Source of the DNA: Pleurotus ostreatus/Saccharomyces cerevisiae fusant
Taxonomy: Eukaryota; Opisthokonta
Assembly (NCBI GenBank): GCA_024196135.1
Contig: JAMQCK010000818.1
Coordinates: 1 to 15,335 of the forward strand
Reading direction: 5' to 3'
DNA: 15,335 nucleotides
Below the pieces are notes generated by a model. It had not been told where the DNA came from. It did not search any database and saw only the letters and a list, made by a program, of their open reading frames with translations. Position numbers and translations under genes: made by a program. Positions 1 to 14,286 of the stretch are shown one piece after another (positions within the stretch are counted from its first letter, which is position 1; each line of letters begins with the position of its first letter).

Positions 1-40
1 CAGTCAGTATTAGTCGCAGGGGTGCTGCTCAGACACTCAC

Positions 41-809
41 AGTATCCCGTTATCTTCTCCTCGGGTGTATGGAAGTATACGCTCGTTACCCCAGCAGCAA
101 ATATCCACAGAGCGATCATGACGGTGTTGACCGCAATGGCGAAAGTGCGCGCGAGGGTCCGCGGCGCTTGCGATTTCAAGAGGGGTCGAAGCTGATCGGC
201 GAGCACCAGGATGCTCATCGTGAGCAGGAAGATGTGGCCAGAGACGTCGTGGCCGCGACGGAGCCTGGGGCGCCCGCCCCACGAGGAGGGGATGACGTAC
301 GACCCGGTGGTCGCGTCGAATTGCGCCGTGAAGAGATCGGGATGCGTCTCGGGCGAGACCTTAGTGCCCGTGTAGCAGTACTCGTGCGGGAGGATGACGA
401 CGTTCTCCATGTCTTCGTGGGGGACGACGAGGACGCACTCGCCACCGCTGGCAACGGTGACGCGGTCGATGAGGGACGGTCCAAAGAACCAGCCAGCGAA
501 CGCGAGCCAGACGGCGGTAGCGACGCCCCAGCGTAGGATCTGAGGGAGTGCACGCCGCGGAGGGCGCGCTGTTATCGCGATCGCTGCCGCCGCGGTCGTC
601 CATCCCCACGCGTTCTTGATGAAAACGGTGTTCAGGGGGTTGGCCTTGTTGGCGAAAAAGTGCGTGGGACCGAGGGGATGGGGGAGGTGTGTGAGGAGGG
701 GGTCGGAGGTATCAACATAGCTGCTCGCGAGCACCGAGTAGAGTGTTCCGAGTGCGACCGTCGCGGTCGTCGCGGCCAGCGCCTGCACGCGGACGTCGTG
801 GATGTTCAT
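41..809 (-). CDS. FIT2/Scs3-type ER fat-storage-inducing transmembrane protein (partial, 3' part outside window)
   Basis: The frame is open from the ATG at 809-807 (good GCC-ATG context) down to 41, giving 256 codons plus one base. A GTGAGT donor at 40-35 then starts an intron, so the C-terminal exon(s) lie left of the window. FIT proteins sit in the ER membrane, are related to lipid phosphatases, and promote lipid-droplet formation and ER phospholipid balance; the yeast members are Scs3 and Yft2. The family is recognised from RGHDVSGHIFLL around His187/His192 and YFHTPEEKITG around His247. These match the two conserved His motifs of FIT2, with the catalytic pair most likely His192 and His247. 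Hydrophobic stretches suit several membrane spans: about 8-30, 62-78, 86-109, 192-207 and 217-246. No intron interrupts the visible exon. It is divergent from the metallophosphoesterase at 937. Family call firm; which yeast paralogue it matches is not resolved. Confidence 0.87.
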
Positions 810-936
810 GGCAAGTCGTGTCGGCCGTCGCGGCGTCGAGTGACGTCAGGCGACGAGCGGCAGCGCGGACCGGGAGTGAACTTGGGAGCCGCCACGTTGA
901 GTTGAGTGCGCAGTGCGCGCTTGTCTCCCTCCGCTC
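810..936. promoter_or_regulatory. Shared bidirectional promoter of the FIT2-like and Cdc1/Ted1-like genes
   Basis: Only 127 bp separate the two divergent start codons (809 on the minus strand, 937 on the plus strand), so both 5' leaders and both core promoters must fit here or overlap the genes. There is no TATA box. The stretch contains the CRE/ATF-type palindrome listed separately at 841-848. Sharing of control is inferred from spacing only. Confidence 0.6.
841..848. promoter_or_regulatory. TGACGTCA palindrome (CRE/ATF-type bZIP site)
   Basis: A perfect 8-bp palindrome, TGACGTCA, lies 32 bp upstream of the FIT2-like start and 88 bp upstream of the phosphoesterase start. The sequence is the consensus for CRE/ATF bZIP factors. 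A second perfect copy occurs at 9956-9963 upstream of the isomerase gene. Function is inferred. Confidence 0.45.
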
Positions 937-3061
937 ATGGGCATCAGCGAGCGCCGCAAGTACAAGGCGACCGCGCGATGGGCGTACTCACGCCCGCTCG
1001 TCCTCAACGCTCTACGCCTCCTCTGGATCGTCATCGTCGTCTGGGGCGAGATCGGTGTCTACTACTGGTCTCTCTCGTCCTGTCGCTGGCCGGATAAGAA
1101 CTTGGTACGCAGTCAAATCATGCAATTACGCCCCTAGCTGACCTGCAACTTAAGCCTCAGCATGCCTCCCCAACCCACATACTGCTGATTTCCGTGCGTC
1201 GTTGCGTTCACGACCTTCCAACTCATCCACCGATCACCTACCCGTAGGACCCGCAAGTCCGCCCCCCACGCGATTTCTGGGAAGACACGTCCTGGCTCGC
1301 TTCTGCACGGGAGTTCTTCTTTGAGCTCAACTTGAAGCGTAACTGGCATGTTACTCGTCGTCTGAAGCCACAGACCATCTTCTTCCTCGGCGACATGCTG
1401 GCCAGCGGGAAATACGTACACAGCGAGCAAGAGTCCGTCTATTCTACTTCCCCTTTGACGCTCTGCTAACTGCGGCAGATTTGAGCAGTACTGGCAGAAG
1501 TTCCAGGACACGTTTGCCTTCGAGAATGGGACGGACGTGTACTACCTGCCAGGGAACAACGACTTTGGGTGCGTGGAATAATACAGCGAGGTAGGTCAAG
1601 GTGCTAACTATGTATAGCATGGGAGCCTCACGCTCTCTTTCCGCCAACGTGCGAGCGTACTACAAGAAATATGTAGGCCCACTCAACCAAGCCGTCCCTC
1701 TGCGCGGACACAACTTCGTTGCATTGGACGCTCCTGGCCTCGTAGATGAGGATTACAGAAGATCTGCCAGCGGCTTACCGCATCAGCAATGGAGTCCGAC
1801 CCTCGGAGGGACCTTGGACTTCATCAGAGAGTTAGACAATGGTCAGCGAAGCAGCTCCCTTTCATCTCCACGAGTCCTGCTTACAGAATAACAGAGCAAG
1901 GCCCTGTCGTGCTGTTGTCGCATATTCCCCTGCACAGACCTGATACTGCCACATGCGGCCGGCTCAGGGAGAAGGGGACTATCCGCAGGGGCGTTGGTCA
2001 CGGCTACCAGAACACCCTCGGCAAGGAGACAACATACTATCTCCTCGATACGCTCCATCCTGTCGCAGTCTTCAGGTTCGTCCTCGATACCTCTTCTTGC
2101 ATGGCTTACTCAAGTTATGCCCAGCGGTGACAACCGTGATTACTGTGAATACAATCATACCTCTCGACACATTGACCCAGAGACTCGCACGAAGATCTCT
2201 GAGGAGAGCGTCCGGGAGGTCACCATCAAGTCCTTCTCTATGGCACGAAATATTCACCACCCTGGATTTCACCTACTCTCGCTTGTCGAACCATCAGCCG
2301 GCGCGCCGTCGTTAGCAGACACGGCATGCTTCCTACCAGATCAGCCCGGCCTGTTTTCCACCCTCTACTGGCCATTCGTGGTCATTACCACCCTCCTCTT
2401 GCTCTTCCTCAACCTGCGGAAAGGACCTGGCCGTCTACCCGGTCTTGTCGGTCGCCTCACACCAGCTAGCCCATATCGTGGGCGCCATCCGACTGTCTGG
2501 ACGCCATTCACCGCCGCGCCAGAGAGTCCTACGGGATCCCGTCCCGTCGTTCGCACTCCCACATCTTCCGCCGGCCCGCAGATGAAGGCGTCGTCTCGTC
2601 CAGCATCACCCTCTGCGCTCCTCCATCCCTCGTCTGCGGCTGCCATTGCGGCCGCTGACGCTGACGAGGACGAGGATGAGACGTACCCCGCGCAGTACGC
2701 CACCAGGCGCGCGGCGTACGAGCACGACGACCTCTGGTCACCGCGACACAACAAGGGCGCGCGCAGCATCGACCAGGAGGCCGCGGACTCCTACTTCCTG
2801 CAGCAGCCCGCCGCGCCTCGACATCAGGGTAAGCGCCCGTGGTCGTGGTCATTCACGTTCGTCTTCGCGCAGCGGCGGAGGCGGATCACGCTGCGGGCGC
2901 CGACGCTGACAGCGCGGGGGGTGAAGGATGCGGTGGGGGTGCTGGAGAGCGGGGCAGACAAGTTCGATGCGGGGGTGGTGGGGAGCACGGCATTGGATGC
3001 ATTGAGTGTGCTGTGGGTGGCCGTGGTGGTATGGGCGTTCCTAGCGTGGAGATCGTTATAG
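937..3061 (+). CDS. Cdc1/Ted1/PGAP5-type ER metallophosphoesterase (GPI-anchor remodelling)
   Basis: Seven exons: 937-1104, 1161-1193, 1248-1432, 1479-1568, 1618-1841, 1895-2075, 2125-3061, encoding 605 residues ending in TAG. The metal-binding motifs of the calcineurin-like phosphoesterase fold appear in order: ISDPQ (Asp68, Gln70), LGDM (Asp116), LPGNNDFG (Asn156, Asp157), LLSHIPLHRP (His243) and FSGDNRDYCEY (294-303). SGD(D/N)xDYCE is characteristic of the Cdc1/Ted1/MPPE1 branch, which removes ethanolamine-phosphate from GPI-anchor mannoses in the ER or early secretory pathway. Hydrophobic spans are seen at about 24-45, 372-393 and 585-603. A low-complexity Pro/Ser/Ala and acidic region links the last two. 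Intron branch sites such as CTAAC at 1466-1470 and GCTAAC at 1603-1608 support the joins. The shift from exon 5 to exon 6 uses the acceptor at 1893-1894, because the one at 1885-1886 brings in a stop. Cdc1 versus Ted1 orthology is not settled. Confidence 0.88.
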
Positions 3062-3482
3062 GACGCGGCGAGGGGAGAGTGCAGGACGATGTAGGAGTAG
3101 AGTGGTGGCCCTGCAGAGCTACGATGCTATGTAATTTATTCGTAACAAGGACTTTCGTACGACTGGCGATGCGTTCTGTAGCATATAGTGGGAGCTTGCT
3201 TTCTGTCTTTACGGACAAGGACATTCAGAGTGGACTAGTCCAAGGTGCCACCGATGTGAGATGAGCCACCCCTTTCATCTCGAGTGTCCTCATCTGGCGA
3301 TTTCTGCACTGACCACCACCAAGCAGTTCCTTCGTCGCTGTAACCTCTGCGAAATTGTCATCTCTGCCTGGCTCAGGCTAGCTTGCTTCCCGAGCGGTGG
3401 CATCATCGATCACACGGTGCACAGGCGCAGCTGGATCTTGAGCTGCATACGGTACTTCTTCTCAACCATACTCCTGACGACC
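3062..3482 (+). other. Intergenic region and 5' leader of the BSD gene
   Basis: 421 bp lie between the phosphoesterase stop and the chosen BSD start. I see no RNA gene, repeat or TATA box. The frame of the BSD gene stays open upstream to an ATG at 3261, which would add 74 residues rich in Cys, Trp and Ile. That extension resembles no known domain, so I treat it as leader (see findings). Confidence 0.5.
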
Positions 3483-5059
3483 ATGAACTTCGTGGACCCA
3501 TTCGACATTGCTACTGCAAGTAGCAGCACGCCCCCACCGCGGCCTGACAATGAGCAGAGCCTGAACGAGGAGGTCAATCAGGTCATAGGCCAGCTCGGGC
3601 GCTTCTGGGGGGGCTTCCGGCAGCAGGTGCGTTGCGACGACCAACCCATCCACTCTCATGCTGATGGACTTGTGCTGCAGAGTCAAGCTGCGCTTCAGGT
3701 TGCAAAGAAGGATCTTGGAGACGTCGTGCAGCAGGCGCAGAAGGAGCTCACCAAGCTGACGACGGAAGTCACCTCCCCCGCCGCTCCCGAAACACCTGCC
3801 GGCGAGCCCGCAGAAGGCGAAGCCTCCGCTCACGACTCCGCCGACCGAACCCCTGTAGGCTCCCCCACTACCGAGCAAGCCTCCACCGCCGGCCCCTCCA
3901 CCTCCTCCACCCCCGCCGCAACCGCCACCGCCCAGGTCTCCAACATCTTCAACCGCCTCCAGGCCGCCCTCCCGCCCGCCGTCGTCTCCGCCGTGCAGCA
4001 CAACCTCGAGACCGTCCAGTACACGGTCCAGCACAACATCGAGAACCTGCAGCACACCGATCTCAATGCGCTGCGGCAGAGCCTCTCCGCCGAGTTCGCG
4101 CGCGTGCAGGGCGTGACGCGCGCGCAGGCGGAGGAGTACATGCACCGCAGTGAGGAGCTCCTGCGCGAGGCGGGCGACGTTCTCAAGGATGCGGTCAAGG
4201 TGCTGCCGCCGGAGGACGAGGGTGTGGGGATGCAGGCGGGCGTGGTCTGGGATGGGTCAGATATCTGGATGTTGCCGGAGCCTTCGTCTGGAGCAGGAAA
4301 GGGAAAGGGCCGCGCGAGCGCGGAGACGCAGCGCTCGGTGTCGACACGGGCGGAGGCACTCTTGAGGCGCCTACGCAGCGATCCGGAGATCATCTTGCAC
4401 GACCCCGAGGCCGATGAGAAGGTGAAGGGCATTTACGATGAATGGCTGAAGAACATCGAGTTCGCGCTGGGCGGTGAGAAGAAGACTACATGGGACGAGA
4501 AAGTTGAGAGCGCACTGGCTGACGGGGCGGATGGTGCTGCCTTGAAGGCGACTCATGATGCGACTGGTAAGATTCCTTGGTATTCAGCTCGCCAGCCGCG
4601 TTACTGACATTAACTCAGTGCCCGACAAGTTGACGGAAGAGGTCTTCTGGCAACGTTACTTCTTCCGCGTACATCAAATTGAGACCGAGGAGGCGAAGCG
4701 CAAGACTCTTTTGCAAGGTACGTATAGTCTTTCGAGGCGTCATCCTTCGCTAATCACATCTTGCAGCCCAAGTCAACGACAACGAGGAAGACTTCAGCTG
4801 GGGCGAAGAGGACGAAGAGGAAGAAGATATCACGTCCACTCACACCATCGAGAAGCCACCCGTCAGCGAACCAGCCGTCCAGAAGCTTGCGGAGCCCAAG
4901 CCTGAGCCCGCCAGCGCCATTCCGGCTCACCTCAGCTCTCGTGAGAGCAGCGGGGAGGAGAGCTATGACGTCGTGTCATCGAATGTTAGCGCTGTGGGTG
5001 AGGAGCCCAAGAAGGAGAAGGAGAAGGACGAGTCGGAGGAGGACAGTGATTGGGAGTAA
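3483..5059 (+). CDS. BSD-domain protein
   Basis: Four exons: 3483-3626, 3681-4566, 4619-4717, 4767-5059, encoding 473 residues. The start was chosen at 3483 (ACC-ATG context) because MNFVDPFD is a plausible N-terminus. Residues of about 75-130 are Pro/Ser/Thr/Ala-rich. Residues 133-228 form amphipathic helices with a short internal repeat (VQHNLETVQ / VQHNIENLQ). The BSD domain covers about 270-370, with PEIILHDP near 283-290 and the diagnostic FWQRYFFR at 353-360. An acidic tail (EEDEEEED) follows from about 384, and the protein ends in SDWE. BSD domains occur in TFIIH p62, in synapse-associated proteins and in Dos2-like fungal proteins. Acidic-tailed single-BSD fungal proteins like this one have no firm biochemical role. 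Intron 1 is 54 nt and stop-free, so its retention would insert 18 residues in frame. The gene converges on the O-methyltransferase 120 bp away. Confidence 0.85.
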
Positions 5060-5179
5060 ATCATCTGAATACAATGTACAGTATTGGCTACATCGGAAGC
5101 CCAGGATCCTCTGTACTTATACCACTAAATCTATGCTCGAAGTCATTATATCCTCGGACTCTACTCGACCCCATGGGAT

Positions 5180-7076
5180 TTACACCTTCCTGCACACAAT
5201 CTCGCTGAAGCAGCTCCCGGGCGTTTGGTGAACATCGAAGATCTTCCACCCTGCCTCCCTCGTCAACTCGTCGAACTCGCCGAGCGTCCGCTGCTGCCCA
5301 GTCGTCATGACCGCCATCGTGAAGTCCTGGAGGTACACCTCCGCGAAGGCCTGCCCAAGGTTCGGCAGGAGGGGCACAGGCGCGTCGAACTTGTTCATGC
5401 CGTCGAAGAAGAGGGAGTCCGGAGAGGGACACGCTTGAGGGACGATTTGCTCGGCGATCACGAGAATGGTGTCCGAAGACGCTGCAGTGCTGAGGTGCCT
5501 CAGGATATTGACGCATGCGTCGCGGGGCCAGTCGTGAATGATGTAGCGCAGATAAAAGGCCGCGACCGGTACAGATCGTTGCGCCTGGGATTCGAACATG
5601 CTGTGGGCTAGCACGGGAGTCATGAGCGGAACGTACCCTCGCCGACATCGCATGTCCTCACCTTCGAAGCTGACACGACCCATATCCACCATGGACTTGA
5701 GCGACGGATTCGCAGCCCATTCCTGTAAGAATGAACGACGATATGATGTGCAGCTCTAGCGAAACGACAAATTGACGCACCGGGACGGTCTCGTTGGCTA
5801 TGACATGCGGAAGGTCTTGGCCGAAGATGTTGAGGTTGGGGCCTCTCCTGGCGATCCTGGCGGTCTGGGTCCCTATCCCACAGCCAACGTCGACGACCAA
5901 TGAATCCTTCGGCAAATTCTCCCAAAGAAAGCCTAGAAAAACGAGGTGAGTACGCGGTAGAAGTGCAAACGCAGCAAACGCACCTCGCAGATTCTTGAAG
6001 TAACCACACAGATTGGCGAACCCTGGCATGACCATCTGCAAGCGCTGCGAGCGCCCGGGAGAGCGTCTCATGATTCCCCATATATCTTCGTCGGTGTTGA
6101 ATACCTCTGATACAGGTGCCCTTCTCAGATGTTCTCCGCGCAAGACACTGTCCGGGAGATACGCCGCTGCCTTGAACTGCTCGTCCATACTGTAATGTTT
6201 TCAGCTTAGACTCGCCGCGATAGCAACATGAAATCATGATCTTACTTGTTATCTAGAAATGCGCGGATGCTATCCGTATCCTTGTATCTATCCACGTTCA
6301 CAGGAGCCAGACCGAAAGGAAAGTTGTTGAGGGTCTTCTTCTTGTCGCTGAAAGATACGTCAGACATTAATGAGCCGTCCTGCCTCTCGAGAGACTGACA
6401 TGGCGTCTTGCGCGACCTCATGGACGTCTTTTCCTGTGTCCATGAGCCAAGACGGACGGTTGTGGGCGAAAACATTCGGGGAGAGCTGGAAAAGAGCACG
6501 TCAGGTCTGTCCATTGTAAGACTCGGATGCGGCATGAGGGATACCTCCTGGAACACATAATGCGCACAAAGAAATCTTAGCGCCCGACCTGTAGAGCCGC
6601 GCTTAGCCTCAGGTACAGAAGGACATCGTCCACAAACTCACCAAGTATATTCTCGTCCGTGCACGTCGCTGCGGCTATGAACTTGATGTGCAACCCTTCC
6701 ACACCCGCGTCCCGCAGAATTTCTGGGACGCACGCGTCTGACACAATGCGCATCGCGCTAGCAACGTAGCCCTATTGGGTGGTTCATTCACAATTGTGTT
6801 CACAATCTTTGGAAGGAATGTACGTACCGAAGCTGCACGGTCGTATAGCAGAAGGCCGCTGGGCCTCAAAGTAGCGGCTAGCTGGGACGCAGCAGAGTTT
6901 GCTAGATATGCAGCGTGGACGACGACAGAGTCGGAGATGAATCTATTCTGCTTTTCTGTGGGACGTTCGATGAGAGACGGATATCCAGGGATGCCGTGCC
7001 GTTCTGCGAGGTCTTCGATGATGTTGACTTGCTCAGTGAGAAGATGAAGGAGCTGACGAAGGTTCGAAGGCGCCAT
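5180..7076 (-). CDS. SAM-dependent O-methyltransferase, COMT-like (Methyltransf_2 type)
   Basis: Nine exons on the minus strand: 7076-6828, 6771-6642, 6588-6545, 6485-6400, 6347-6246, 6189-5984, 5932-5781, 5722-5662, 5607-5180, encoding 485 residues. The N-terminal part has the helical dimerisation type of fold (RPSWLMDTGK region). The SAM-binding motif I is VVDVGCGIG (285-293). RYIIHDWP carries the likely catalytic base His368, followed by Asp369 and Trp370. Such enzymes methylate hydroxyls of aromatic or polyketide substrates in the cytosol; the substrate cannot be read from the sequence. The last intron was set to 5661-5608 because this acceptor gives FEAHSMFESQ, the family pattern. A 36-nt alternative intron and direct read-through both fit the family worse. 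Introns are 51-59 nt. No polyketide, terpene or NRPS core gene is nearby, so a role in secondary metabolism is only possible, not shown. Confidence 0.85.
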
Positions 7077-7173
7077 TGAAGCGAGACAAGAAGGGAGGTA
7101 ACGAAAGGAGATCTGGGTTGTGAGAGAGGTAGTCGCACGTCCTCTGGTAGGGACGTTGTTTGCGTACTGCTCC

Positions 7174-7181
7174 CTTATAAG
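7174..7181 (-). promoter_or_regulatory. TATA-like box of the O-methyltransferase gene (CTTATAAG)
   Basis: CTTATAAG, an 8-bp palindrome, lies about 100 bp upstream of the minus-strand ATG at 7076. That spacing suits a TATA element. The same octamer occurs upstream of the isomerase gene at 9988-9995. Confidence 0.45.
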
Positions 7182-7757
7182 AGGCGGACGGCTGACAGGG
7201 GTCCTTGGATATCGGTCCCGATTCCGGTACTCGATATGGATCCTAGGATGATCACTCAAAGGATCATGACCGTAAAACTTGATATTGCTCGTCAAAGCAG
7301 TGTAAAAAGCTATTTTTCCTGCCTGAAGGTCAGTGTGCTAGTCTGGAGACAGGATGCTACGAAACTTACTAGGCTACGGGAGCCGGATCCGAGCAAAAAA
7401 TAGCATGAATATACATAGTCGTGGAGCGGTATACCTATAAACGTCGATAGCGGAAGGACCACCGTAGGCAATTACCTTGTCCTGCATGCAGGCAAGCCTG
7501 AGCGTGTCCCGGCGAGCGCTCGGAGTCTCATGCGCTCCGATACTAGAGAGCCTCAGCGTCAAGGTACATCCATAGTTCACGCACCAACTTCGAAAGGCGC
7601 CTCCGGAGCCGTTGCATGGACAAGCTTACATCCACTGCCCCATCCTGAGCGCACGTTGTATACCACACCTCCGATGTGTCCAAGTCGAGGGGGGAAATCG
7701 AAGTCTATGGCCGTCAAGTGATGAGCATGATGGATGTTTTGTACGAGTAGAGCTCCC

Positions 7758-7889
7758 TGAGTCTCCCGGCTATGCGGGCTGCCAAGCGCTGAGTCCCGGG
7801 TGAGTGTTCAAGTCAAGTTCATGTTGAACTTGCGTCACGGACGCGTGCGGAGGCACGTGGTCGGATCACGATCGAGCGCTTCATGAGTC
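7758..7889 (+). promoter_or_regulatory. Cluster of Gcn4/Cpc1-like TGAGTC half sites upstream of CPA1
   Basis: TGAGTC occurs at 7758-7763, 7790-7795 and 7884-7889, and the related CGAGTCA at 8011-8017. Each is one base short of the TGASTCA site bound by Gcn4/Cpc1 bZIP activators of amino-acid synthesis. The location 240-370 bp before an arginine-pathway gene fits general amino-acid control. No perfect 7-mer is present, so this is suggestive only. Confidence 0.3.
7814..7832. repeat. Perfect 8-bp inverted repeat, 3-nt spacer
   Basis: CAAGTTCA, a TGT spacer, then TGAACTTG form a perfect dyad upstream of CPA1. It could be a dimeric regulator site or chance; nothing else supports a role. An E-box CACGTG follows at 7854-7859. 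Confidence 0.4.
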
Positions 7890-7984
7890 GAATTTTCGCG
7901 TCCTGCTCCCTCCTGCTTTCGTCCTCCACCTTGCCGCCTGCCGCGTGCCCAGCAAACCCAATTGCCCGAGCCCACCCTCGGTAC

Positions 7985-8103
7985 ATGATCTTTACTCAAA
8001 ACACCCGCGACGAGTCAGTGTTTCTCTTTTCCTTCCTCTTCCACCTTTGCTAAACGTCCCCAGTTACCTCAGCGACCTCGTTTTCTCTCTCCTTAGTCTC
8101 TGA
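7985..8103 (+). promoter_or_regulatory. Candidate arginine-attenuator-peptide-like uORF, split by an intron
   Basis: The only ATG between the TGAGTC cluster and the CPA1 start is at 7985, in a weak context (T at -3). Joining 7985-8013 to 8064-8103 gives a 22-residue peptide that begins MIFTQ and ends DYLSDLVFSLLSL. The intron at 8014-8063 is 50 nt with donor GTCAGT, branch-like CTAAAC and acceptor CAG. The stop is 19 nt before the CPA1 ATG. Fungal CPS-A small-subunit mRNAs carry a uORF for the arginine attenuator peptide, whose core in Neurospora is FTSQDYLSDHLWRALNA. FT and DYLSD match, and DYLSD is followed by eight residues before the stop in both. HLWRA is not conserved and the FT-to-DYLSD spacing is longer. 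If unspliced, the uORF ends at 8053 after 22 other codons. Candidate only. Confidence 0.4.
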
Positions 8104-8122
8104 TACCGTGTCGCGCTACAAC

Positions 8123-9541
8123 ATGTTCACTCGACCTATCATTCGCATTCCTCAGCTCTACAAGGGCTTCCGGGGTATGGCGACGCACGCGTCGACCGTC
8201 CCTGGTGTCCTTCACCTCAAGTCCGGGCAGTCGTTCACTGGACGGTCTTTCGGCGCCCCGAAAAGCATCTTCGCTGAGACTGTGTTCTCAACGTCTATTA
8301 CCTCATGTAGGTGTCCATGCATCCTAGTATACACACCAGCTGACCGCCAATCAGACACCGAATCCATGACCGACCCTTCATACCGCGGCCAGATCCTAGT
8401 CTTCACCGCTCCCCTCATCGGCAATTACGGCGTCCCCGCGAACGAGGCACCTTGCGACTCCCGCGACGTTGGGGTCGTTCTGGAGTCGAAGGGCATCCAG
8501 TGCGCAGGTGTCATCGTCGCGGACGTTGCCGACCGTTACTCCCACCACTCCGCCGTCGAGTCAATTGCGACCTGGTGCCAGCGTCATGGGGTCCCTGGCA
8601 TCAGCGGCATTGACACGCGCGCTGTCACCACCCTCCTTCGTGACCAGGGTACCACCTTGGGTCGCATGGCCATTGGCGCCGACGCGTCTCTCGCACCTCC
8701 CGCCGCAGAAGAGTACTGGGACCCCACGGGCGAGAACCTCGTTGACCAGGTTTCCACCAAGAAGCCCTACGTCCTCAACCCCGCCGGCGACGTCAGCATC
8801 GCCGTCCTCGACTTTGGTGCCAAGGCCAACATCCTGCGCTCCCTCGTGCGTCGTGGCGCCAAGGTCACTGTCCTCCCGTGGAACTACGACTTCAACGCCG
8901 TGCGCGACAAGTACGACGGCCTCTTCCTCTCCAACGGCCCGGGTGACCCCGCGCACTGCATGGACGCCGCGCTCAACTTGCGCAAGACGATGGCGGAGTG
9001 GGACAAGCCTGTCTTCGGTATCTGCATGGGCCACCAGATCATCGGTATGGCTGCCGGCCTCGACGCCTACCGTATGACCTTCGGCAACCGTGGGCACAAC
9101 CAGCCCGTCCTGGCGCTCGCGTCTTCGGGCTCCATTCAGGCTGGTCGCGTCTACGTGACGAGCCAGAACCACCAGTACGCGCTCAAGCTGCAGGACCCGT
9201 TCCCGGGTGGATGGGAGCCGTTCTTCATCAACTGCAACGACTCGTCAGTGGAGGGCATCAAGTCGACCGCTGACTCGGGTCGCAAGGTGTGGGGCGTGCA
9301 GTTCCACCCTGAGAGCGCTGGTGGACCGTTGGACACTATCGAGGTACGTCTTCTTCGTAACTAGTTGTGGACTTGTATGTTGACAGTCCTTCAGATGTTC
9401 ACCGACTTCGTCACCGAGTGCCGCGCGCACAAGCTATCTATCCCCGCTGCTAAGGGTCGCGTGCCCATGGCTGATCGCACCAACGTCGACCTACCTCAGG
9501 ATCTCCCCAAGGGAGCGGCCCCTCAGGCGGCCCACGCATAA
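8123..9541 (+). CDS. CPA1: Carbamoyl-phosphate synthase, arginine-specific, small (glutaminase) subunit
   Basis: Three exons: 8123-8306, 8355-9343, 9395-9541, encoding 439 residues ending in TAA. It releases ammonia from glutamine for the large subunit to make carbamoyl phosphate for arginine. The N-terminal CPSase small domain shows TSITSYTESMTDPSYRGQIL (with Tyr62 across the first splice), GNYGVP and GISGIDTRAVT. The class I glutamine amidotransferase domain starts near 209, with SNGPGDP, FGICMGHQ (nucleophile Cys285), TSQNHQYA and GVQFHPE (His379, Glu381), so the catalytic triad is complete. The N-terminus, MFTRPIIRIPQLYKGFRG, is basic, hydroxylated and free of acids, like a mitochondrial presequence. 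The ATG at 8123 is used, not the in-frame GTG at 8108. Both introns (48 and 51 nt) are multiples of three. The leader carries a candidate attenuator uORF and Gcn4-like half sites. Very secure call. Confidence 0.96.
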
Positions 9542-9590
9542 TGTTTTGTCTTTCTGTTTATCTTGTGGATGGGATCATGTATCGTAACTG

Positions 9591-9608
9591 AAATGTAATA
9601 TAAATATA
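9591..9608 (+). terminator. AT-rich 3' processing region of CPA1
   Basis: An AATGTAATATAAATAT-type tract lies 50 bp after the CPA1 stop, in otherwise GC-rich DNA. It resembles fungal polyadenylation efficiency/positioning elements. The rest of 9542-9737 holds nothing else I can name; the promoter of the small gene at 9738 must lie in it. Confidence 0.4.
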
Positions 9609-9737
9609 GGCGTAGGAAATAGACTATACTCGTAGGGCTACAAACATATTTCTCCATATTCGCGAACGAATCAAAGGGGCCTTTCAGAGGGTGACTGAAG
9701 CCCGCTGGCGATGTCCCGCGGAAACAGAATGTTGAAC

Positions 9738-9936
9738 ATGGCAACACGTGCTCCGGATCAAAACTCCAATCAGGCAAGTTTTCTCTCAGCGACCCTCTCA
9801 CGCACCTTTTCTCTCACCATTTCAGGCCTTGAGCACTGGTATGCTCGAACATGATTCCGAGCGCGTCAAGAAGGCTCTCCTCAGCAACGAAGCTATCGGC
9901 ATCGACGCCAGCATGATCCTGGGTATGATGCTCTGA
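9738..9936 (+). CDS. Candidate 48-residue protein, GC-AG intron, function unknown
   Basis: Two exons, 9738-9773 and 9826-9936, encode 48 residues ending in TGA. The start has an optimal context (A at -3, G at +4). The 52-nt intron has donor CAG|GCAAGT, the strongest form of the rare GC-AG class, and a pyrimidine-rich end before TTTCAG. The joined protein begins MATRAPDQNSNQ, has a charged middle (EHDSERVKKALLSNEA) and ends in a Met-rich, hydrophobic GIDASMILGMML. There is no signal peptide and no recognised domain. It lies between CPA1 and the isomerase on the same strand, 196 bp and 130 bp away. I do not recognise it. The balanced composition, clean splice and start context favour a real micro-protein over a chance frame. 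Confidence 0.5.
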
Positions 9937-10066
9937 CCACGGCTTACGGTCAACATGACGTCAAGTCCCCTCCATCCGCTAGCCCTGCTTATAAGCGCCT
10001 AAGCCATAGGTCAACGTCGCCTGCATCCACCAACTCTGTCTGCACCATCCTCTGCCTCTCGAAATC
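9937..10066 (+). promoter_or_regulatory. Promoter and leader of the mannose-6-phosphate isomerase gene
   Basis: A 130-bp interval contains a perfect TGACGTCA at 9956-9963 and a TATA-like CTTATAAG at 9988-9995, about 70 bp before the ATG. A pyrimidine-rich leader follows to 10066. Spacing and order (activator site, TATA, leader) fit a compact core promoter. Confidence 0.5.
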
Positions 10067-11533
10067 ATGTCTGCGATCCACCCGAACCAAGATCACCGCC
10101 CTATGGTCCGCCTGGCATGCCAGGTGCAGCCGTATTCGTACGGCAAGAAGGGCTCGAAGAGTCTAGCCGCGAGATACGCACTCGCGACGCCGGAGAATGA
10201 CTTCAAACTCGACGAGGACCAGGAGTACGGAGAGGTATTTGCATCTACCCTCCAAGATTGGATAGTCGTGCTGAACATCCTATCCAGATCTGGATGGGCG
10301 ACCACCCCAACGGTCCCTCGAAATCCGCCGCGACAGGAGTCGAGCTCGCGACCCTAATCCAGCAACACCCGGACGAATTCCTCGGCGCAAAGGTCGCGCA
10401 AAAGTACCCCAATCCCACGAACGGCAAGCCGCAGCTCCCCTTCCTCTTCAAAGTACTCTCCTTCGACAAAGCGCTGCCCTTGCAAGCACACCCGGATAAA
10501 AAGCTCGCGGCGCAGCTATACAATGACGAGGACAAGAAGCAGGGCGGCAATCACGAGAAGTTCGTCGACACGAATCACAAGCCGGAGGTGGCAGTCGCGC
10601 TGTCGGAGACTTTTGAGGCGTTCGTGGGGTTTAGGCCGGCGGAGGAGATTGTGCAGTTTTTGCGTGATGTGCCGGAGCTGCGCGAGCCGGTTGCGTCGGA
10701 CGTGTCGTCGTCACCGGAGCTCGATAGGGAGTTAAAGGAGACCTTCGGCCGCATCTTCGACGCTGACCCTGCGACCGTCCAACGGCTCACAAAGTCATTG
10801 GTTGAGCGCGTGGAGAAGGAGGGCGACGCTGCTCTCGGCGAGATTGGGAAGAAGAAGGGCCTCGCGCGCGTCGTGAAGAAGGTGCTCGCGCAGTATCCGA
10901 ATCCGTCGACGGTCGACCAGAAGAGCATGTTCGCCGCCATCTTCTTCATGAACTTCGTCGTCGCCAAACGCGGCGAGGGTATAGCCGTCCCCGCAGACTG
11001 CATACACGCGTACTTGGAAGGCGATTGCATCGAGGTATGTCGATTCGATGTTGGCTATCCTTCCGCGCTTACGCTCGCCACAGTGCATGGCGACGTCCGA
11101 CAATATGATCTCGTGCGGCTGGCAAGGCGCGATGGGCCCGCCAGACGATGCCAGCCTCTTCGTCAAGATGCTGCTGCACAATCCAGGCCCATCCCGACAC
11201 CTCGCACTGCCTACGACGACCGTCTCCGCGCCGAGGGCTCAGTCAGGCAAGTATACGACGGAATACGGCATCAACAAGTTCATGGAGGAGTTCTCGATCT
11301 TGCGCGTTGACTTGCCTGGCGGTGCAAGGGAGACCCTCCGACTCGCTGGTCCGGCGATCTACATCGTGACGTGTGCGGACCAGGGCGTCGAGTTCAGCAT
11401 AGGTGCAGACGAGCAGCGTGCGACATTGAAGGAGGGCGAGGTCGTCTTTGTGAAGCCGGACAACGACTTGACGATTGCGGGCGTGCGCGGCGGTGGCAAT
11501 GTTGAAGTGTTCGGTGCATATTGCGAGGTGTAA
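10067..11533 (+). CDS. Mannose-6-phosphate isomerase, type I (PMI), with divergent active-site signature
   Basis: Three exons: 10067-10234, 10288-11034, 11084-11533, encoding 454 residues ending in TAA. PMI interconverts fructose-6-P and mannose-6-P in the cytosol, feeding GDP-mannose for glycans and GPI anchors. Zinc ligands of the family are visible: Gln122 and His124 in LPLQAHPDK, Glu156 in HKPEVAVAL, and His296 in IHAYLEGDCIE. Further family motifs are YGEIWMGDHPNGPS, LPFLFKVLS and ECMATSDN across the second splice. After SDNMI the type I signature continues RAGxTPK in classical enzymes, but here reads SCGWQGA, so the Arg expected at 315 is Ser. The reading frame is intact through this stretch and to the end, so this is not a frameshift. 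The family is secure. Catalytic competence or substrate preference may differ, and it could be one member of a divergent fungal PMI branch. Confidence 0.88.
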
Positions 11534-11733
11534 AAGTGCAATGGAACTCGTGCGCTATGTCCCCGTGTATGACCAAGTTTGAGCGAAGAAACAACTGTAC
11601 ATGTGGACGGAGCGATACTTGGATTTGATGGACGTGTGCGAAGCTCAAGTTCGACCATTACAAACACTGGCGAATAGACCAAGCCGTGACCTCAGCCAAC
11701 GTAGCGAATGCCGTTCGACCACGAGCATCCTAT
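11534..11733. other. Convergent intergenic region, isomerase and membrane-protein genes
   Basis: 200 bp lie between two facing stop codons (11533 and 11734). I see no gene, hairpin or repeat. Both 3' UTRs must lie or overlap here. Confidence 0.5.
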
Positions 11734-13155
11734 TTACGTCGTAGACGCGATTGCGCGCGCTCCCTCGATCCCAATCTCACCTGATGAGGTACGTACACTG
11801 CGCGTGCTTGGAGATCCTCCGCGGCTGCCCGTAGCAAGCTGCTCCAGGGAGACTCCGTCCACTGTATCCTCGTCCCTTGACCCCAGATCGTGCGTCGCCG
11901 CTGGGCGATCCGCAAATTCCATAGCCTGCGATACTTGCGCGCTGAGCAGGCTTTGGGTCGTTTGGCCCTGCAGGGAGACGAACAGGACGCAGGTAGGATA
12001 AATCCCCTGGACGCGCGCCGTCATTTGGAGGGTATCGTACGCAGACAAACGACATACAGCAACGTTATGAATGGCGTTCCCCAGGGGGACGCTGATGGAA
12101 AAGCTATTCGTTCTTGCTGTGGCGAATGTGATGCAGTCGCAGACCTGCGGGCAGTCAGATTCATGAACGCGGCCAAAAATTGAAGGCGCACCCAAAAGAG
12201 GCAGTAAACAAGCCCTGATTCCAAAAGGACCATGAGCACTTTTTCCGCCTGAGACCGCTGCTTGAAGATTCCAAGAGAGCCTTTGATCTCTCGACGGTAA
12301 TACCTGGTTTGCCACGTTCAATATTTCTGAGGAAGAGTAGCGAATGCTTCGCTTACCAAACCTTGACGCCAATCAACGAAGTTGCCACGATGTTGGTGAA
12401 CAGGAGTGGAATAAGCATGGTGAGGTACTGGGATACGCTTTCGAAACTGTGGGCGGATGGCGAGTTCGGCCAGAAGGCCCAGACGCACTCAGTGATACTC
12501 CCACCTATGTGTGGAAGGCTCAGCGAAGAAATGTAGATATATTTTTCGCCCAAACTCACCAATGCTTCCGCACATGCAAGTCAATAGTAGGGCCTTCGCG
12601 AGGCGATGATCCTGCCAAAGGCACCAAGCCCGCCAGACGAGGACCACATCACACATCACGTACTGAAAGGAGTTCAGAAATGTCTGCAATGTGCTGTGAA
12701 CAAGGGTACGCACGTTCGAGCGGCGGGCGACCGCTATAAGTACTTCCAAACGATCCAAGAGCCCATTGACGTCGTGCTCCGAAGCACCAAGAGCGGACGG
12801 AAGTTCGACCAAGTAGAATGCCGCGTTGGCAAAGACAGCGATGGTGGAAGAGAAGAAGAGCCCCAGAATCGCCACTAGCGTGAAGCGTCGTTGGCCCTGC
12901 CGATGTCTGAGAGCCGTTCAATATTCTGGCGTACGCGAATATGTTTGACCTACGCAAGGATAGACGCGGCCGCAATGAATAGCGCCAGTTGTGCTCCTGT
13001 CGGATCGTCTCAGTAGAAAATTAGGAAGGGAGGTTCAAAGACGACCACGTACCGTATAGTACAAAGTCGACGCCGATATCCGTCATGATGACTTTCCACA
13101 CATATATATCATATGCCGCCAAGGGCCCATAATCTGAGTCCGCAATAGCCCTCAT
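11734..13155 (-). CDS. Seven-helix integral membrane protein of a basidiomycete orphan family
   Basis: Eight exons on the minus strand: 13155-13053, 12996-12954, 12906-12732, 12683-12560, 12504-12357, 12303-12192, 12144-12058, 12006-11734, encoding 354 residues. Hydrophobic spans lie near 29-48, 57-83, 108-130, 133-152, 175-198, 219-243 and 252-275. YDIYVWKVIMTDIG at the N-terminus, DVVLVWRAWCLW (119-130), WYYRREIK (198-205) and LLESGLVYCLFW (224-235) recur in multi-pass proteins expanded in mushroom-forming fungi. No function is known to me for these. A Ser/Thr/Gly-rich tail of about 75 residues should face one side of the membrane. Introns at 12731-12684 (48 nt) and 12057-12007 (51 nt) are in-frame and stop-free. 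I splice them because this restores the LEVLIATFLNSFQYVMCD and GIYPT patterns. Those two joins are the least certain. Confidence 0.72.
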
Positions 13156-13631
13156 CTGGTCTTATGGAAGGAAGACCGGGAGGAGGGTGGAATGTCTACA
13201 AGCGCGATCTTGCGAGCCCGGAGGGTTATATGTGACCATGAGCGCCAGAATTCAAGCTCGGAGCAGCTGGACTGCCGCTGTATTCATAGTTCTGATGACG
13301 CTCCGGCCTTGCAATAGCGTGTCCGTATCTTCTCGCGGACAGGTCAATCAAGATGCTGTCCGCCGCATATGTGATATCAGCGTGAAACTGGGGCGTGGCG
13401 TACATGGTGGATGCTCTAAGATAGAGGCTTCATATCTCGAATTGGCGATCGCAGTGCGAGTGCTCCATTGTGCCCCTCGAGAGCAGTGGCACGCTACAGT
13501 TGATCGTTATAGCCAGGTACAGGTCAATTGCGCGAGCCCCACTAACGATGAAGGAAGGGAAGGAAAAGGACAACCACGTGCGCGGCTCGCGCGTTAATCG
13601 TGACGACGCGTGACAGAATTTTGAACCGTAT

Positions 13632-13966
13632 CTGACTTTGAGCACTGTGAGTGGTGGTAGCGAGTTGACGATCGCGGGCGTACGCGGCGGTGGTCATGTG
13701 GAGGTCTTCGGTGCATACTGCGAAATATAAAATTTACTCAACAGCGTACAATGTATTTCTATAGATAATGCACTAAACCTGTGAAGAAGAGAGGGGGAAG
13801 GAAGAAGATCTAGAGGGCCACGCGAGCCGGTAATCGGAAAGTGCCGACGGAACCAAACCTGAGTAAACTCAACTTTGATCCTGACTTTGACCACTGTCAG
13901 CGGTGTTGGCGGCGAACATGGGAGCACAGTCGCTGGCTTCGAAGCCGAGTGACTGTGCATACGACA
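13632..13966 (+). repeat. Diverged direct repeat, two copies about 250 bp apart
   Basis: Copy 1 starts at about 13632 (CTGACTTTGAGCACTGTGAG) and copy 2 at about 13882 (CTGACTTTGACCACTGTCAG), with 18 of 20 matching bases. Weaker similarity follows: a GGCGG..CATG.GAG segment, CTTCG, and GTGCATAC in both. Copy 1 contains the isomerase relic. Copy 2 looks like a further decayed or internally deleted version of the same unit. The limits are approximate. Confidence 0.45.
13664..13732 (+). pseudogene. Relic of the 3' end of a mannose-6-phosphate isomerase gene
   Basis: The frame at 13664-13732 reads ELTIAGVRGGGHVEVFGAYC then EI and a TAA stop. The intact isomerase ends DLTIAGVRGGGNVEVFGAYC then EV and a TAA stop (11465-11533). 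By hand count 57 of 69 bases and 19 of 22 residues match, and most differences fall at third codon positions. That pattern implies the copy diverged while still coding, as a true paralogue, before losing the rest. Upstream similarity stops at about 13664, and I found no other isomerase segment in the window. It could instead be the last exon of an unrecognised gene, but no frame carrying isomerase motifs leads into it. Confidence 0.7.
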
Positions 13967-14286
13967 TACTGACCTCACAGGAGCTTTTTGCGCTGTGAAG
14001 GAGTGCACGCACCGTCGAAGTCGCCGAGTGACAGCGGCTTCCCATGTTCCCTTAAGATAGTATGGCGAGAGCTTTCTGCTGTATAACGAAAGTACTCAGG
14101 TGCTCAAGCAGGCAGGCTCATGCGCCCTTCTCTCGCCCGGAAGTGGAGAGATTCCAGAATCTCTTCGCAGAATAAGAGGAGCGGAGTGCGAGACACGCCC
14201 TTGCCGTCCTTGCCTCCTTGTCCCCGCATTGAACACGACATCTCAAAATCCTTCGTGATATATCTATCTTTGCTTCTGTTACTGCA

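Follow-up and report, generated by a model that had tools for sequence, protein, structure and literature searches.

A candidate splice-dependent arginine attenuator peptide in the CPA1 leader of a Schizophyllum genome

The leader of CPA1, the gene for the small subunit of arginine-specific carbamoyl-phosphate synthase, contains an upstream open reading frame (uORF) that is split by a predicted 50-nt intron and whose spliced product carries the core of the fungal arginine attenuator peptide (AAP). On the evidence of its sequence and position, this uORF probably (roughly 0.7) descends from the AAP and serves CPA1 as a divergent arginine attenuator that depends on splicing. The window referred to throughout is the whole stretch of 15,335 nt analyzed (G000:C1077:1-15335), from a 40-Mb genome in 1277 contigs, in which a second haplotype of the locus is found on contig C446. 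A first-pass annotation of the window had proposed an intron-split, AAP-like uORF; its position, the stop-anchored match, shuffling of the leader, and the pattern of exon and intron divergence between haplotypes give good support to an intron-split uORF derived from the AAP, while the register of one shared residue pair, the fungal order named for comparison, and the description of the intron had to be revised.

The CPA1 gene and its leader

The CPA1 model (Table 1) contains two introns and encodes 439 residues, of which 431 are identical to those of the Schizophyllum commune protein P0001. Among the 120 CPA1 matches listed, P0001 and P0002, the latter from S. amplum, ranked highest, and the host is therefore assigned to Schizophyllum. 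This genus belongs to the order Agaricales, so that the Polyporales, originally named as the relatives to be compared, are not the relevant group.

The uORF begins at the only ATG between the main start codon at 8123 and an ATG at 7883 that overlaps the third upstream TGAGTC, in agreement with the single upstream ATG first described past the TGAGTC cluster. Removal of 8014-8063 from the frame opened at 7985 gives MIFTQNTRDDYLSDLVFSLLSL followed by a stop (22 codons), and rereading of the sequence returned the coordinates, frame, 50-nt GT-AG interval, and codon count originally given. The junction lies within the codon for the initial Asp of DYLSD (GA|T), also as annotated. CPA1 starts 19 nt past the uORF stop, and the uORF presumably lies inside the CPA1 transcript. 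As is typical of fungal AAP uORFs, its initiation context is weak: in both haplotypes, T occupies position -3 of the upstream ATG and A occupies position -3 of the CPA1 ATG.

Three of the five TGAGTC sequences on both strands of the window fall within 132 bp (7758-7889), a post hoc clustering with P of about 6e-5 (Poisson, for 223 bp). The three copies annotated as a cluster are thus present, but each is only a half-site, which we take to be of the Gcn4/CPC1 type, and the window contains no full TGA[C/G]TCA site. Half-sites in this position upstream of CPA1 are consistent with general amino-acid control.

Table 1. Features of the CPA1 locus (window coordinates; C446 is the contig of the second haplotype)
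Feature	Position	Strand	Remarks
TGAGTC half-site 1 of three	7758..7763	+	identical in C446
TGAGTC half-site 2 of three	7790..7795	+	identical in C446
TGAGTC half-site 3 of three	7884..7889	+	identical in C446
uORF exon 1	7985..8013	+	MIFTQNTRD plus the first two bases (GA) of the split Asp codon; T at -3, a weak start context
Predicted uORF intron	8014..8063	+	GTCAGT...CTAAAC...CAG, 50 nt; in C446, CTCAC and a length of 51 nt
uORF exon 2	8064..8103	+	T of the Asp codon, YLSDLVFSLLSL, stop TGA
Spacer, uORF stop to main ATG	8104..8122	+	19 nt; A at -3 of main ATG
CPA1 exon 1	8123..8306	+	gene model fitted to P0001
CPA1 intron 1	8307..8354	+	gene model
CPA1 exon 2	8355..9343	+	CPSase_sm_chain and GATase domains
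CPA1 intron 2	9344..9394	+	gene model
CPA1 exon 3 with stop	9395..9541	+	P0001 residue 439 ends at 9538

Resemblance to the arginine attenuator peptide

Alignment from the stop codon with the Neurospora crassa AAP (PDB 2xl1_A) reveals identities at T, D, Y, L, S, and D and at a later L. The T..DY[L/I]SD core lies eight codons ahead of the stop, confirming the spacing of DYLSD noted earlier. FT had been named as a second shared element; DYLSD is in register, but FT (residues 3-4) is not, as the conserved AAP Thr aligns with Thr7 and alignment of FT would need a three-residue insertion. Against the Neurospora AAP, the peptide has a BLOSUM62 score of 18, a value that 143 of 400,000 shuffled versions of it reached; the score against the yeast AAP is 27 (23 of 400,000 shuffles).

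The uORF resembles those of N. crassa arg-2 and Saccharomyces cerevisiae CPA1 in preceding the CPS-A small-subunit gene, in length (22 residues, vs. 24 and 25), in the T..DY[L/I]SD core, and in the placement of the stop eight codons past it; the yeast uORF is also described as having a weak start context (PMC7969011). At high arginine, the AAP is reported to stall ribosomes at the uORF stop, and in yeast the D13N substitution, which affects the Asp equivalent to the junction Asp described here, abolishes arginine regulation (PMC7969011). Among basidiomycetes, the Cryptococcus CPA1 homologue is reported to carry an AAP-type uORF that ribosomes occupy strongly, and the transcript increases 5-fold in a upf1-delta strain (PMC7049704); this repressive uORF of the same gene is likened to ours by its description rather than by its sequence. 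An arginine-responsive uORF peptide of Toxoplasma ApiAT1 likewise needs an Asp within an AAP-like sequence, although the organism is unrelated and the gene encodes an arginine transporter, and its authors propose convergence (PMC8370653).

Several features differ from the N. crassa and yeast peptides. Asn precedes the conserved Thr in place of their Phe/Tyr, Asp rather than Gln stands ahead of the critical Asp, and the HLWR/HIWK block is replaced by LVFS, the change of the tail block that the first-pass annotation had pointed out; both haplotypes lack the H[L/I]W[R/K] motif and have LVFS. In addition, the codon for the critical Asp is interrupted by the intron, in a comparison that covered the peptide sequences of the known AAPs. 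The AAP is a thoroughly studied nascent-peptide sensor; its tail has been taken to belong to the arginine-sensing unit, and Trp-19 within it was reportedly found essential by Spevak in 2010. Because HLWR has become LVFS at the place of this Trp, the peptide is classed as AAP-like and not as a proven AAP.

The likelihood of the core match was assessed with 800,000 dinucleotide-preserving shuffles of the leader (7900-8122), in which each ATG was read either straight through or after excision of a single GT-AG interval of 40-90 nt. The real leader matches D-Y-[L/I]-S-D at five of five stop-anchored positions, a score found in none of the shuffles; four of five occurred in 12. With no constraint on where in the peptide the core stands, four of five occurred in 123 shuffles and five again in none. 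Of the nine peptides read from the real leader, the unspliced one included, the runner-up scored four of five and lacked the junction Asp; the DYLSD match depends on the splice. A version requiring a CTNAY branch site was dropped, since the window intron is without the motif and the real leader scored 0; its 40,000 shuffles gave at best three of five anchored matches.

The predicted intron and divergence between haplotypes

The quality of the 5' splice site was evaluated genome-wide by counting hexamers that have CTNAC and CAG behind them at a spacing typical of introns, with the reversed pattern as a control. GTGAGT yielded 1960+2191 = 4151 intron-like matches against 259+241 = 500 in the control, the GTCAGT of the uORF intron yielded 806+864 = 1670 against 283+243 = 526, and the non-donor GTCACT yielded 186+211 = 397 against 310+266 = 576. 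GTCAGT therefore is a real but second-rank donor in this genome, its excess above the control being smaller than that of GTGAGT. The branch-like CTAAAC of the window intron falls outside CTNAY and is a poor branch site; C446 has CTCAC. What had been called a textbook 50-nt intron is thus a usable GT-AG interval with a second-rank donor and a branch sequence unlike CTNAY.

Contig C446 and the window are syntenic, at 89.0% identity over window positions 1-5924 and 89.9% over 5182-14084, and the contig encodes an identical spliced peptide (10145-10173 plus 10225-10264) around its 51-nt intron. The comparison is between two haplotypes of one genome and one species. In uORF exon 1, one of 29 columns differs, a synonymous change in a Thr codon, and all 40 bases of exon 2 are the same; the first 18 bases of exon 2 have exactly two exact matches in the genome, which are the two haplotypes. 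The intron differs at 9/51 columns (8 substitutions, 1 gap), compared with 1/69 in the exons (Fisher exact p=0.0019), and 2 of 19 columns differ in the spacer. Nine of the 14 haplotype differences in 7900-8122 fall inside the uORF intron (hypergeometric P=0.0007). The pace of the uORF intron is close to that of CPA1 fourfold sites (44/246 different, 18%), although not every intron keeps it: CPA1 intron 1 differs at 8/48 columns but intron 2 at only 3/51. The promoter and leader region 7700-7984 is conserved like the uORF exons (6/286 columns different), so that exon conservation alone is not specific to the peptide. The haplotype pattern is accordingly better evidence that the intron is real than that selection acts on the peptide.

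Upstream of the uORF, 12 of 686 columns (under 2%) differ between the haplotypes over 7300-7984, in contrast to 24/300 over 7000-7299 and roughly 10-11% over the whole locus.

With the intron kept, the window uORF from 7985 stops within the intron; in C446, reading continues in frame to give 39 residues ending ...PSYLSDLVFSLLSL, with Ser at the place of the Asp. Because the codon of the critical Asp (GA|T) would be completed by splicing, a retained intron would leave a uORF without an intact core. An extension of this idea, speculative and rather unlikely, is that Schizophyllum possesses a splice-gated nascent-peptide switch in which the spliced mRNA alone makes the critical Asp and the hydrophobic tail LVFSLLSL makes tunnel contacts other than those of HLWR, perhaps with an altered choice of ligand.

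Predicted regulation, alternatives, and related sequences

In the mechanism that we favor, initiation at the weak upstream ATG would yield MIFTQNTRDDYLSDLVFSLLSL once the 50-nt intron has been removed. With the uORF stop codon in the A site, the exit tunnel would hold the T..DYLSD core, whose spacing from the stop equals that in the Neurospora AAP. Under plentiful arginine, the peptide would most likely slow termination, halt scanning ribosomes a short way ahead of the CPA1 start, and make the CPA1 mRNA a target of nonsense-mediated decay; under scarce arginine, leaky scanning would reach the strong CPA1 start. Leaky scanning fits the T at -3 of the upstream ATG and the A at -3 of the CPA1 ATG, and the spacer probably leaves little room for reinitiation. 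By analogy with the known AAPs and the Cryptococcus uORF, an AAP-type mode of action is most likely here, an analogy weakened by the loss of HLWR. If the attenuator reading is true, the locus offers a natural AAP mutant, one that retains the core, has an altered Trp block, and gains its critical residue through splicing, for mapping the residues that sense arginine, and it would tie intron retention to amino-acid control.

The alternatives differ in what they retain of this mechanism. A chance likeness, which the first-pass annotation feared in so CT-rich a leader, would be in keeping with LVFSLLSL, a tail of the cheap Leu/Ser/Phe type; it is nevertheless a poor explanation and highly improbable, as none of the 800,000 shuffles that preserved dinucleotide composition reached the full core and the match sits before the one gene expected. 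It is also very unlikely that the uORF is absent from the mature mRNA, with transcription starting downstream of 7985 or the intron left unspliced and the conserved stretch serving as promoter. The strong conservation of 7300-7984 would suit such an arrangement, but conservation falls in the predicted intron and recovers in exon 2, and the DYLSD match requires the splice.

A weightier alternative, though still an unlikely one, retains AAP descent and gives up arginine sensing: with the core kept and the tail lost, the uORF would act as a general leaky-scanning brake or a trigger of nonsense-mediated decay. The change of HLWR to LVFS and the replacement of the Gln ahead of the Asp point in this direction, and a weak upstream ATG with a short spacer would suit any repressive uORF. 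Against it, all 22 residues are kept in both haplotypes while the intron changed at 9/51 columns, so that the peptide sequence may still matter, although the promoter is equally conserved. The arginine-attenuator reading, which we prefer, has the LVFS block and the poor branch site of the window haplotype against it.

Searches for relatives and prior descriptions were carried out at several levels. A scan of genome contigs for fungal CPA1 leaders with 14 Agaricomycete CPA1 proteins, drawn from the 120 CPA1 matches listed, gave 80 matching stretches, of which 29 loci were confirmed, each with a bacterial title; two scans of viral contigs confirmed 0 of 3 and 0 of 30 matched stretches. A search for gene models that join the uORF peptide to CPA1 scored two candidates, and the one returned was the S. 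commune N-terminus. Rfam gave no match at the gathering score over 7300-8400. The literature passages covered yielded no basidiomycete AAP sequence or intron position, from which no absence in print is claimed. The peptide strings had no match in literature text, an uninformative result because sequences usually appear in figures. Comparative work on fungal AAPs, said to have been carried out by Hood in 2007 and Spevak in 2010, may already catalogue such AAPs.

Other parts of the locus may have been rearranged. Contig C446 carries extra DNA (about 5200-8100), and window 5182-5924, which contains an O-methyltransferase-like ORF (Pfam Methyltransf_2), lies inside both long C446 matches, which flank a 67%-identical copy of window 6541-7098. 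Such an arrangement points to tandem duplication on C446 or, on the window haplotype, to a deletion between repeats. The 3' end of a phosphomannose-isomerase-like gene (domain match in ORF 10258-11310) seems to recur some 2.2 kb downstream (window 11464-11533 and 13661-13732, with cross matches to C446 of 84% and 81%), perhaps as a partial duplicate. Elsewhere in the genome, G000:C864:11055-11481 and G000:C896:11045-11471 are 72% identical to the methyltransferase-like window 5186-5609, and C864:11678-11778 matches window 5815-5915 at 70%.
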